Positions 1-13,978 of a stretch of 13,978 nt of DNA are shown here, piece after piece. Where the stretch lies: positions 1-13,978 of the forward strand of contig JAFOML010000027.1 in NCBI GenBank assembly GCA_017425345.1, written 5' to 3'. Made by a program: the position numbers and the translations under genes. The notes under the pieces were generated by a model. The model saw nothing but the letters and a program-made list of their open reading frames with translations, was not told the DNA's origin and did no database searches. Within the stretch, counting starts at the first letter, position 1; each line of letters starts with the position of its first letter. This stretch comes from Eubacterium sp. Its GTDB lineage: Bacteria > Bacillota_A > Clostridia > Peptostreptococcales > Anaerovoracaceae.

Positions 1-101
1 CAAGGACGTAGCGAACGACTGCAACGGGCGCCGGGAGCTTCAGCTCCTCCGGGTTTCAGTGGGGGATTATAACCCACCACTGAAAGTCGGAAATGGAACC
101 C
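1..101. repeat. 101-bp exact direct repeat, left copy
   Basis: Bases 1-101 are identical, base for base, to 13878-13978. The match runs to both ends of the window, so the true repeat may be longer: the left copy lacks its upstream side and the right copy its downstream side. This is what a contig ending in a multi-copy element, or a loop closed by a shared k-mer, looks like. The repeated stretch is part of the folded element described in the ncRNA entries. Confidence 0.97.
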
Positions 102-140
102 GCCGCCTATAGAGGCGGGGGACATCCGGCGCCCGTTATA
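1..140 (+). ncRNA. Folded RNA-like element, 3' portion (candidate HEARO/omega-RNA-like)
   Basis: Seen directly: a perfect 12-bp long-range stem pairs 23-34 (AACGGGCGCCGG) with 126-137 (CCGGCGCCCGTT) and encloses three hairpins. These are 34-38/43-47 with a TTCA loop; 54-65/73-85, a 12-bp stem with one bulged A (76) and an ATTATAA loop; and 99-108/113-121, a 9-bp stem with one bulged G (102) and an ATAG loop. The unpaired joints are purine-rich (about 86-98). No protein-coding gene of its own is present. The 3' end of the closing stem lies 3 bases before the racemase stop codon. The strand is chosen by analogy; both strands can fold. Inference: size, GC-rich multibranch shape and intergenic position resemble the HEARO/omega-RNA scaffolds of IscB-type IS200/IS605 elements, which also occur without their protein gene. 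A TnpB right-end RNA or an unrelated structured repeat remain possible. Confidence 0.45.
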
Positions 141-7027: not shown

Positions 7028-8698
7028 TTACCGGTTCACCTGCTTCACTGCACCGAAGAACAGCGGAAGTCCGGTCTTCATATCGACGATCGCGTACACG
7101 AACGGCCGGTCCAGATACACTTCCACGAACTCCTCACCCGGAGCAGCTGTCGCCTTTTCGATGGCTGCCGTTACCGCTGCTGCTTTGGTTCCCGTGCGGT
7201 CTACCTCGATGTATGCCTTGTGCAGCACGTCATCCACGTACAGATCCGGGGTCGCCATATCGGAGAGGTCCCCGCCGGCAAAAAGATCCGCGACACCCAT
7301 ATCTGCCAGAGCATCCTTCAGTGAAGCGCCGAACTCGGTCTTGAATTCCGGCATCTTCGTCTTGACCATCGCGTGCTTCTGTTCCTTAAACCCTTTCAGC
7401 AGATCCTTTCCGGTGATACCGGCAAGGTAAGTCTCCACATCCATGCCTTCCGGCGGAAGCAGCGCCAGGAACCCGGTCTCTCCGCCCTCGTAAGGCTTGA
7501 TAAACCCGGTTCCGCCGCCCACGGAAACATACCGGTTCTCGGTCCCAGTCAGCATGGTCACTTTCTCGTCCGTACCGTCTGCCGCATGGAATACCTCACC
7601 ATCGCGGCAAGAGCCTTCTTTATACTGTTCTGCCCATTTCCCCTGGAAATACACGGCATTCAGCAGCACCATCCGTTCCTGTCCCGAGAGGTCGTCGAGG
7701 ATCCCCGGAATCAGGCCCTGCGTGTTGTTATAGCACCAGTTGTTGATATCATTCACCGTCGTCTGATCAAACGGCGCTGCGTAGAGCGACGCATGGTAAT
7801 AGGTCGCGATGCGCTTTAAGAATGCGCGCTTCGGATTGCACTCTTTCTCGTGGAACCACATGGCGTCCGCGATATCGTACTGCACGTGCTTCAGATCCGC
7901 GAGTCTCTGGTTAGTGGTAGCGAGCATACGATCGTATTCGTCCCGGGTGCACGATCCGCCGAGCAGGGTGGACAAATTCTTCTGCGTCTCCCCTGCCGCC
8001 CCGCAGTTCACCATCGCAAGCGCGGTCGCGATCGAATGCGGGGAGATGATCACACTCTTCCCATTTGCAAGCGGGAGCATTCTCGTAAGCAACCCAAGCG
8101 AAAGATCCGCAGACGCTGCACAGAACGCATCACTTGCCTCCATCACATCGTATGTGTCCGGCGTTACACTTGCCGTCAGATCCTTTGAATTCTCGCTGAT
8201 GGGCTTTGGAGAAAAGTTATTCGCGCCCTTCATCTCCTTCTTCACCCGGAACGTCACATAGCGGCTGACTCGCTTCGGCGCTTTCCAGGTTACTTTGATG
8301 CGGTACTTCCCTTTCTTCAGCAGATCGGTACTGTAAAGATCAGTAATGCAGTAGGTCGTGCTCAGCGCCTTGTGCGCCTTGAGCTTAGTCGCCCAGAAGC
8401 CGATCATCTGCACAGGCACCTGCGGGAGCTTCACCCACTTGCTGCCTTCTTTTCTCTGAAGGCTGTATTCTTCCGTGACCCCGATCGCGCGGTTCGTTCC
8501 GTTGGCGAACTTTACGCGAACCAGCAGAGTACCCTCGGTGGCCTTGGTCCCGACGAGCGTCACTCTGGTCTGTTTTCCCTTGTACTTACTTATGGTATCC
8601 CGTTTCGACAGCGCGCTTACCGTCGATGTCGCTGCAAGAACCATGCAGAACACGATCAGCATAGACAGCATCCATCTTAGTCTTCTCTTGGTCATCAT
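7028..8698 (-). CDS. Secreted serpin with N-terminal Ig-like domain
   Basis: A 556-residue exported serine protease inhibitor. Residues 1-29 are a signal peptide (cleavage after VSA). Residues 36-155 form a beta-rich, lysine-rich domain like bacterial Ig-like folds. Residues 185-556 are the serpin: SVIISPHSIATALAM (215-229), LLNAVYFQGKW (345-355), KMPEFKTEF (448-456) and the C-terminal DRPFVYAIVDMKTGLPLFFG (530-549) follow the family pattern. The hinge is G503-TKAAAVTAA, with small residues, so it should be inhibitory. Counting 14 residues on from G503 puts P1 near T517, with A518 as P1', but the loop is about 4 residues longer than in alpha-1-antitrypsin, so the scissile bond is uncertain. 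Start: AGGAGG at 8704-8709 is 5 bases from this ATG and 8 from the next one (8695). It heads the unit with the secreted protein, ROK kinase and MATE exporter. Confidence 0.92.
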   Translation of the reverse strand: MMTKRRLRWMLSMLIVFCMVLAATSTVSALSKRDTISKYKGKQTRVTLVGTKATEGTLLVRVKFANGTNRAIGVTEEYSLQRKEGSKWVKLPQVPVQMIGFWATKLKAHKALSTTYCITDLYSTDLLKKGKYRIKVTWKAPKRVSRYVTFRVKKEMKGANNFSPKPISENSKDLTASVTPDTYDVMEASDAFCAASADLSLGLLTRMLPLANGKSVIISPHSIATALAMVNCGAAGETQKNLSTLLGGSCTRDEYDRMLATTNQRLADLKHVQYDIADAMWFHEKECNPKRAFLKRIATYYHASLYAAPFDQTTVNDINNWCYNNTQGLIPGILDDLSGQERMVLLNAVYFQGKWAEQYKEGSCRDGEVFHAADGTDEKVTMLTGTENRYVSVGGGTGFIKPYEGGETGFLALLPPEGMDVETYLAGITGKDLLKGFKEQKHAMVKTKMPEFKTEFGASLKDALADMGVADLFAGGDLSDMATPDLYVDDVLHKAYIEVDRTGTKAAAVTAAIEKATAAPGEEFVEVYLDRPFVYAIVDMKTGLPLFFGAVKQVNR

Positions 8699-11922: not shown

Positions 11923-13551
11923 TTATCTCTCCTTTCCCTGCGCAGCGCCCGCCTGCATGATGCCTGCCGCCGCGCGAATGAACTCCCGGAACAGCGGGTG
12001 CGCCCGGTCCGGTCTGCTCTTGAACTCCGGATGAAACTGGACCCCGATGTAGAACGGGTGATCCGGATACTCCATCGCTTCGATCAGGCTGTCGTCCGGC
12101 GCAGCGCCGGCAAGCGCCATTCCGTGCTCTTCGAATGCATCGCGATACGCGTTCTTAAACTCGTACCGGTGCCGGTGCCGCTCGGAGATCTGCCTGGTTC
12201 CATAAATCTCCTCGAGCCGGCTTCCCTCCCGGAGCACGCACGGGTATGCACCGAGGCGCATCGTGCCGCCCTTGTCCATCTCCGCGTTCTGATCCGGCAT
12301 CCAGTCGATTACCGGATGCGGCGTCTCCGGGTTGAATTCCGTGGAATGCGCGTCCGCCTGTTCCAGCACATCTCTTGCGAACTCGATCGCCGCGATCTGC
12401 ATTCCGAGGCAGATTCCGAAGTACGGGATTTTGTTCACTCTGGCGTACTGCGCAGCCGCGATCATCCCTTCGATTCCCCGGTCGCCGAAGCCTCCCGGCA
12501 CGATGATGCCGTGCATTCCCTGCAGCGCTTCTGCCGCATTCTCTTCGGTGATCTTCTCGGAATCCACCCAGTGGATGTTCACATAGCAGCCGTTTTCATA
12601 CCCGCCGTGATAAAGCGCTTCCTTGACGGAAAGATACGCATCGTGCAGTTTCACGTACTTTCCGACCAGCGCGATCTCGACGTTCCCGCTTCTGTGATGG
12701 ATCCGGTCGAGCAGGCTGTTCCAGTCGCTCAGATCGATCTGACCAGCCTCTAGCCCGAGCTCGCGGCACACGATCTCTGAGAAATGCTGCTTCTCCAGCA
12801 TGAGCGGCGCCTCATACAGCTGATCGACCGTGGTATTCTCAATGACGCAGTCCTCCCGGACGTTGCAGAAAAGCGCGATCTTTTCTTTTACATATGCCGG
12901 GATCGCAGCATCGCATCTGGCGATGATGATGTCCGGCCGGATCCCGCAGCCCTGCAGTTCCTTGACGGAGTGCTGCGTGGGCTTGGATTTGAATTCATCG
13001 CTGCCGGAGATATATGGAACCAGCGAAACATGCAGGAACAGCGTGTCCTTTGGGTCTCTCTCCATGGAAACCTGACGGATCGCCTCCAGAAATGGCTGCG
13101 ACTCGATGTCGCCGACCGTTCCGCCGATCTCAGTGATGATGATGTCCGCGTCCGCCTGCTCTCCGACGGAATAGATGAATCGCTTGATCTCGTCTGTGAT
13201 GTGCGGGATGATCTGGACGGTCTGGCCAAGGTATTTGCCCTCCCGCTCCTTGTGGAGGACGTTCCAGTAGACTTTGCCCGTTGTAAGGTTCGAAAAGCGG
13301 TTCAGGTCCTCGTCGATGAACCGTTCATAATGGCCGAGGTCCAGGTCGGTCTCTGTGCCGTCCTCGGTCACAAAAACCTCGCCGTGCTGAAACGGCGACA
13401 TCGTCCCCGGATCCACGTTGATGTACGGGTCCAGCTTCTGCGAGATCACCTTGAAGCCTCTCTGCTTCAGCAGACGGCCGAGCGAAGCTGCTGTAATTCC
13501 TTTCCCCAGCCCAGAAACGACTCCTCCGGTTACAAATATGAACTTCTTCAT
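11923..13551 (-). CDS. pyrG: CTP synthase
   Basis: Converts UTP to CTP with ATP and glutamine, the last step of pyrimidine nucleotide synthesis; cytoplasmic. The 542 residues match the family's usual length. The synthase domain has SGLGKG (13-18), the [15 protein letters not shown] block (39-53) and HGEVFV (56-61). The glutaminase domain has nucleophile C381 in GICLGMQ (379-385) and the triad partners H508 and E510 in FHPEF. Start: ATG at 13551 has AGGAGG at 13559-13564, 7 bases away, and begins with [10 protein letters not shown] as in other CTP synthases. A longer in-frame reading to 13644 would only translate the leader. It is followed after 1 base by glmS, whose ribosome site it contains. 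Confidence 0.98.
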
Positions 13552-13767: not shown

Positions 13768-13978
13768 GCCGCTCCCCGCGGGTGTCCTGGGGCTGGCGGC
13801 GGTGCATGGGCGAGCGACACGTGTTCGCCGTAATTGCGTATTTAAGTCGGAGCGTAGCTCCTGGCGTGCTCGCACGTCAAGGACGTAGCGAACGACTGCA
13901 ACGGGCGCCGGGAGCTTCAGCTCCTCCGGGTTTCAGTGGGGGATTATAACCCACCACTGAAAGTCGGAAATGGAACCC
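13768..13978 (+). ncRNA. Folded RNA-like element, 5' portion (candidate HEARO/omega-RNA-like)
   Basis: Right-hand copy, cut by the window end. Upstream of the shared 101 bases it shows hairpins in close succession: GCCGC...GCGGC with CCCC/GGGG inside (13768-13800), GGCGA/TCGCC (13809-13829), GGAGC/GCTCC with a GTA loop (13849-13861), and two mutually exclusive ones, CGTGC/GCACG (13865-13876) and ACGTC/GACGT (13874-13886). After these come the closing-stem left arm (13900-13911) and the first two internal hairpins. Joined to 102-137 it makes a 247-nt element. The plus ORF across it has no family signature. If it is an IscB-type RNA, its guide would be the flanking sequence at its 5' side, the pyrG upstream region. 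The identity is inference; the 5' boundary is approximate. Confidence 0.4.
13878..13978. repeat. 101-bp exact direct repeat, right copy
   Basis: Identical to bases 1-101 in the same orientation, ending exactly at the window's last base. See the left copy for what the overlap may mean. Confidence 0.97.

Follow-up and report, generated by a model that had tools for sequence, protein, structure and literature searches.

The window, by which we mean the whole stretch of 13,978 nucleotides that was analysed, carries ordinary genes (racemase, acetyltransferase-flavodoxin, permease, MatE, ROK, serpin, MFS and CTP synthase, together with glmS, which was identified by reading). The serpin (PF00079), at positions 7028–8698, is combined with a bacterial Ig-like domain, on a contig that is otherwise Clostridia-like. 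The two ends of the window are identical, positions 1–101 being found again at 13878–13978. Since the contig end cuts an element and the ends are the same, the 5' part of this element, with its 5' hairpins, was located at about 13841–13978 and its 3' part at 1–135, both on the plus strand; the two parts may come from different copies. By analogy with relatives, which start with TTCAA, the element presumably starts at the TTTAA of position 13841, and G135 is likewise its probable last base. The target rule taken from relatives designates TTATA, at 136–140 on the plus strand, as the putative insertion target. This putative target adjoins the TAG stop codon (141–143) of the minus-strand racemase gene (141–1262), and a plus-strand ORF (93–878), which for the most part is the racemase gene read on the opposite strand, overlaps the element from base 93. 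The identical 101-nt ends suggest, as the simplest account, that the assembly broke at the repeat. A repeat-bounded contig with identical ends such as this one could be mistaken for a circular element.

All the parts of the fold lie on the plus strand. The closing stem, P1, is formed by AACGGGCGCCGG (23–34) and CCGGCGCCCGTT (126–137), the final two bases of the latter (136–137) being part of the putative TTATA target, and, like hairpin 1 (34–47), was recognized from sequence and fold; P1 also covaries in relatives. Hairpin 2 (54–85), formed by TTTCAGTGG and CCACTGAAA, shows compensatory changes among relatives. Hairpin 3 (99–121) has one bulged base and is followed by GACAT; it is the best conserved hairpin of the repeat and is also contained in our search pattern. 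The perfect pairing of 23–34 with 126–137 and the three enclosed hairpins (approximately 34–47, 54–85 and 99–121), on which the original prediction was based, were confirmed in the sequence, and the minimum-energy fold adjusts the junction, where base 34 can be used by P1 or by hairpin 1, not by both. The degree of order had been described as beyond chance and this proved correct: positions 1–160 fold at −81.4 kcal/mol, versus −52.15 ± 3.84 kcal/mol for 200 dinucleotide shuffles of the same positions (z = −7.62), none of which was as good.

The element belongs to a non-coding repeat without room for a gene, with dispersed copies, found in Oscillospirales, in other Clostridia and in four viral contigs, with a length of approximately 172 nt in the window and mostly 138 nt in genome G001. 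In this 2.0-Mb genome the 3' end was found at 76 sites and the 5' unit at 111, and a stricter pattern retrieved 29 copies in G047, 30 in G049 and 17 in G051. The genome scan, in which the hairpin-3 motif followed by TTATA was required, gave at least 119 stretches from at least 51 assembly prefixes (prefixes counted by hand); the matches listed are mostly from Ruminococcus-like, other Oscillospirales or Clostridia MAGs, with a few isolates, and among them L124 and L127, from MAGs named uncultured Clostridiales, were judged by eye to be the nearest to the window. Isolates that carry the repeat include Acetivibrio sp. MSJd-27 and Ruminococcus sp. Marseille-P6503. Some of the at least 131 sites analysed are likely chance or palindromic double matches (e.g. 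L017, L083, L091, L054+ and L069-). A hairpin-2 pattern gave 14 matches, among them the viral contigs L001, L007 and L013 (two copies in L013), of which L001 and L013 are near-identical across the repeat site, and a hairpin-3 pattern added the viral contig L015, which keeps little beyond the 3' end. An all-against-all comparison of the loci mostly found the same sites again. Positions 13770–13978 had no match at E ≤ 0.01 in the plasmid and phage record collections, and no description of the repeat family was found in the open-licence literature.

The layout of the repeat varies. In at least nine sites (L023, L038, L043, L045, L051, L052, L096, L125- and L128) the closing stem surrounds hairpin 3 alone, hairpin 2 falling outside it, and one G001 copy (L019/L383) is devoid of hairpins 1 and 2 and keeps both ends and the closing stem. 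The G049 loci (L284–L303 and L344–L373) are interrupted by N gaps and contig ends, and breakpoints recur in their hairpins 1 and 2; in this genome the assembly probably fails inside the repeat.

Covariation of the stems among homologues, which had been put forward as a check of the fold, is strong between subfamilies. In 28 aligned copies, hairpins 2 and 3 have 94.1% standard pairs versus 84.2% in shuffles, with changes on both sides in 10 of the 19 tested pairs, and none of 500 shuffles reached the observed value on any of five measures. Hairpin 3 contributes little to this result, since it hardly varies and is part of the search pattern. As MAFFT left P1 and hairpin 1 unaligned, P1 was tested by partner swapping, in which each of 51 distinct 3' sequences was matched both against its own upstream region and against exchanged ones (2000 swaps). 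Matches of 6 nt to the own partner were observed for 19 of the 51 sequences (swapped mean 4.0), matches of 5 nt for 31 (14.5) and matches of 7 nt for 10 (0.8), and in no case was any of the 2000 swaps as high; a first swap test had given 19 of 56 versus a mean of 4.07, the highest value in 200 rounds being 10. Since both the hairpins and P1 covary, the fold is selected at some point of the element's life cycle. The dispersed copies and the covarying stems support a new structured repeat family, which the original prediction had held as its second option.

The copies stand in a fixed orientation to TTAT[A/T], which adjoins 38 of 38 copies in G001 and G049 (the G049 junction counts deriving from a doubtful assembly) and 54 of 61 copies in G047, all of them located without requiring TTATA. 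The left flanks vary, so there is no target duplication. Empty sites were also observed: at a G047 junction that we take to be atpK/atpF, where the element is present, four of five relatives are empty and the fifth carries a remnant. At this junction the relative G054 has TTA where the TTATA of G047 begins, and the TTATA is thus most likely host-derived. At the phage L013 site the relatives differ too much to define a clean junction, L242 and L249 having only a short gap there. In G001 and G049, hairpin 3 is approximately 14–15 nt from one end of the element and the 5' hairpin approximately 8 nt from the other. In 40 windows of G001, the 5' unit stands at its usual spacing from 55 of 61 3' ends (138 nt in 39 of the 55), and the remaining six include three with the 5' unit after an internal deletion and one long unit without it (L408); 5' truncation is therefore rare. 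A 3' end is missing from 22 of 78 5' units of this genome, 15 of which lie directly before TTATA. The 24-nt 5' unit occurs in G001 within the long element, in tandem and alone, as in L341, L342 and L343, where solo hairpin units TTCAATAAGGGGCTTGCCCCGTCA stand directly before TTATA; the solo units may have arisen by deletion or may be a minimal mobile unit in their own right.

According to passages of two published accounts, IS200/IS605 elements have their insertion point 3' of a tetra- or pentanucleotide and cause no target duplication (PMC7290912), and their insertion goes into the lagging-strand template (PMC6006769). For the repeat, the corresponding prediction is that the WATAA-bearing strand is the G-rich strand and hence the lagging-strand template, the strand being assigned from GC skew alone. 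In G001 (62 of its 76 sites), 41 of 62 copies have the predicted orientation, with a free-site background of 53.2% (p = 0.042), and in windows with a skew above 0.05 the proportion is 17 of 21 (p = 0.014). In the fetched parts of G047, 47 of 61 copies are oriented as predicted (background 54.2%, p = 2.7e-4). The pooled value for the two genomes (88 of 123, p = 6e-5) refers to the GC-skew strand and is confounded with gene direction, which was controlled only through the background of non-coding sites: 46 of 61 copies in G047 and 39 of 62 in G001 run with the majority of genes. The published insertion rules appear to fit the target and the strand pattern of the repeat.

We consider that the window element is probably a copy of a non-autonomous mobile DNA repeat of Clostridia, an IS200/IS605-like single-strand transposon. 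Such an element would move as single-stranded DNA and would probably insert during replication; on the strand opposite to the plus strand of the window, insertion would occur 3' of an (A/T)ATAA made accessible on the template of the lagging strand. In this model the left-end hairpin would correspond to hairpin 3 and the right-end hairpin to the 5' hairpin; both hairpins may be bound by a Y1-type (HUH) transposase supplied in trans, and P1, the long-range stem that covaries, would keep the two ends in contact. P1 is a terminal inverted repeat and counts against a plain IS200/IS605 type, elements described in sections of PMC7290912 as having no terminal inverted repeats. We tentatively raise the possibility of a new class of small single-strand transposons, in which the element's own stem P1, two target bases included, would pair the ends, an end-synapsis that is left to the transposase in IS200/IS605. 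Selection would act on the fold only in source copies, so that the repeat would evolve with RNA-like compensatory changes even though the working molecule is DNA.

A mobilising enzyme or autonomous partner was not found among the carrier genomes and loci examined. A Y1 transposase was considered as linked driver and rejected: Y1_Tnp (PF01797, E ≤ 1e-3; the TnpA label rests on this family) was matched in 9 of 14 carrier genomes, 8 of them above the curated cut-off (6 of 8 carriers, with 5 of 8 above the cut-off, in one batch and then 3 of 6), but without shared ends. The five carriers in which the match is missing are MAGs and may be incomplete. There are no repeat copies within about 1.5 kb of the inspected Y1 genes, with the exception of L169, where element-like hairpins lie approximately 1.3 kb from a broken Y1 fragment, and none within the same distance of two genes that we assume to be RAYT-like (L170 and L277). 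An element of G001, presumably of IS605 type, has a left-end hairpin that resembles hairpin 3 and a right end unlike that of the repeat, both as judged by eye. On L007, a 94-kb viral contig, a reverse transcriptase (PF00078, L007:13295–14449) is encoded approximately 1.9 kb from a repeat copy; a retron was considered for this locus and rejected, as two other ORFs lie between the repeat copy and the reverse transcriptase.

The decay of single copies bears on whether the covarying fold is that of an RNA. In G001, the best sampled genome, there is no net structure selection on single copies: among 53 copies, 114 of 4447 stem positions (2.6%) and 56 of 1848 loop positions (3.0%) are changed, the single changes giving A.C in 35 cases and G.T in 33, with only 2 compensatory pairs. 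In G047 (24 copies) the picture is less clear and leaves room for structure selection, 85 of 1991 stem positions (4.3%) being changed versus 82 of 820 loop positions (10.0%), and G.T (29) exceeding A.C (18), in the opposite direction from G001. Mismatches of hairpin 2 in single copies comprise 22 G.T and 25 A.C. G.U pairs are few in the consensus folds, with 15 of 645 on the plus strand and 19 of 674 on the minus strand; these folds represent 16 of 17 subfamily groups (the remaining group had only one usable sequence), and several assemblies are mixed in some of the groups. Since G.T does not exceed A.C in G001 and G.U is scarce on both strands, the repeat is in these respects unlike a selected RNA. 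The fold is slightly better on the plus strand than on the minus strand for 67 of 111 copies, with a mean difference of 1.6 kcal/mol, which is weak evidence for an RNA.

A SINE-like element, i.e. a structured RNA whose genomic copies are made by a reverse transcriptase acting in trans, would agree with the multibranch fold, the strong covariation, the slight folding advantage of the plus strand and the vicinity of a phage copy to the reverse transcriptase gene of L007. Some G049 copies also appear to be 5'-truncated with an intact 3' end, others showing internal jumps. Nevertheless, the G049 truncations fall in hairpins 1 and 2, the same stretch in which other copies meet contig ends or N gaps, and are therefore likely assembly artefacts, while in G001 at most 2 of 61 3' ends appear 5'-truncated and it is the 5' units that more often stand without the other end (the 22 of 78 mentioned above). 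The scarcity of G.U pairs is strand-neutral and, among 446 loci, relatives of the L007 reverse transcriptase are present only in L007 and L236, which belong to the same phage. Since the G049 breaks look artefactual and 5' truncation is not in excess in G001, we set SINE-like retrotransposition aside as unlikely.

We regard as similarly improbable that the repeat is an RNA or DNA feature which the host selects at gene ends, for example a terminator or a REP-like sequence, kept because it is useful. Many copies do run with genes, stems are better kept than loops in G047, and a neighbouring stop codon lies inside the terminal TTATA in 17 of 104 near-neighbour sites (a count that left out 20 of 131 sites overlapping an ORF). 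However, this overlap is expected, since the target contains TAA; the G001 copies, with their two compensatory pairs, show no preservation of structure, and the 3' end of the G001 subfamily, the only subfamily searched for, is present in just 2 of 40 genomes of the genus group, G001 included.

The first choice of the original prediction was a stand-alone guide RNA scaffold of HEARO/omega-RNA or TnpB type, a reading considered here together with the IscB type. HEARO and the omega-RNAs of IscB and TnpB are structured RNAs. The repeat resembles them in being structured and in its IS605-like hairpin, hairpin 3 having been likened by eye to the left-end hairpin of the G001 element, and its 3' boundary is fixed; unlike them, it has no covariance-model match and no TnpB gene was seen beside its copies. 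The Rfam scan of the window gave a single match at E ≤ 5, unrelated and sub-threshold, at 12442–12486, and there were no Rfam matches (release 15) at E ≤ 1 in 12 loci bearing other copies. The protein search of the 446 loci, with two TnpA, two RAYT-like and one TnpB sequences as queries, found no TnpB relatives near copies, although a stand-alone guide would have no nuclease gene next to it in any case; relatives of the TnpA and TnpB queries are confined to the loci fetched because of their Y1 genes and to L419, a 20-kb window of G047 in which one such Y1 gene is present and the repeat copies lie in other parts. With the RNA-strand signature absent as well from the G001 copies and the consensus folds, a guide RNA is very improbable.

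Among the known systems, palindrome-associated transposable elements (PATEs), which passages of PMC3119063 and PMC7290912 relate to IS605-type transposons, are similar to the repeat in being short, non-coding and present in many copies, with near-terminal palindromes and no target duplication. They differ in that the definition printed there excludes inverted terminal repeats, whereas the repeat has P1 just inside its ends, and no IS605-type element sharing the ends of the repeat was found in our search. SMR-A of Haloquadratum, in the part of PMC3119063 that deals with it, is approximately 110 bp long, bears prominent inverted repeats at its termini and reaches 54 copies, with no duplication of the target and an unknown mobiliser. 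By description, the SMRs thus resemble the repeat in size, inverted repeats, copy number and unknown mobiliser; SMR-A is described there as sitting in palindromes of other elements, whereas the repeat lies beside TTAT[A/T] and in Clostridia. REP/REPIN sequences and TnpA-REP (RAYT), as presented in PMC6006769 (see also PMC8266576), also involve high-copy palindromes tied to single-strand DNA processing, compared with which the repeat is longer and multibranched and has, by eye, no GT[AG]G foot. The repeat combines traits of PATEs and SMRs and is a proven member of neither.

Covariation by itself is no proof of a functional RNA, and in this case the fold that covaries seems to be that of a DNA repeat in decay. 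The repeat may explain many of the broken contigs in assemblies of gut and rumen Clostridia, and its copies, numerous and naturally occurring, offer material for studying how single-strand mobile DNA maintains a fold.
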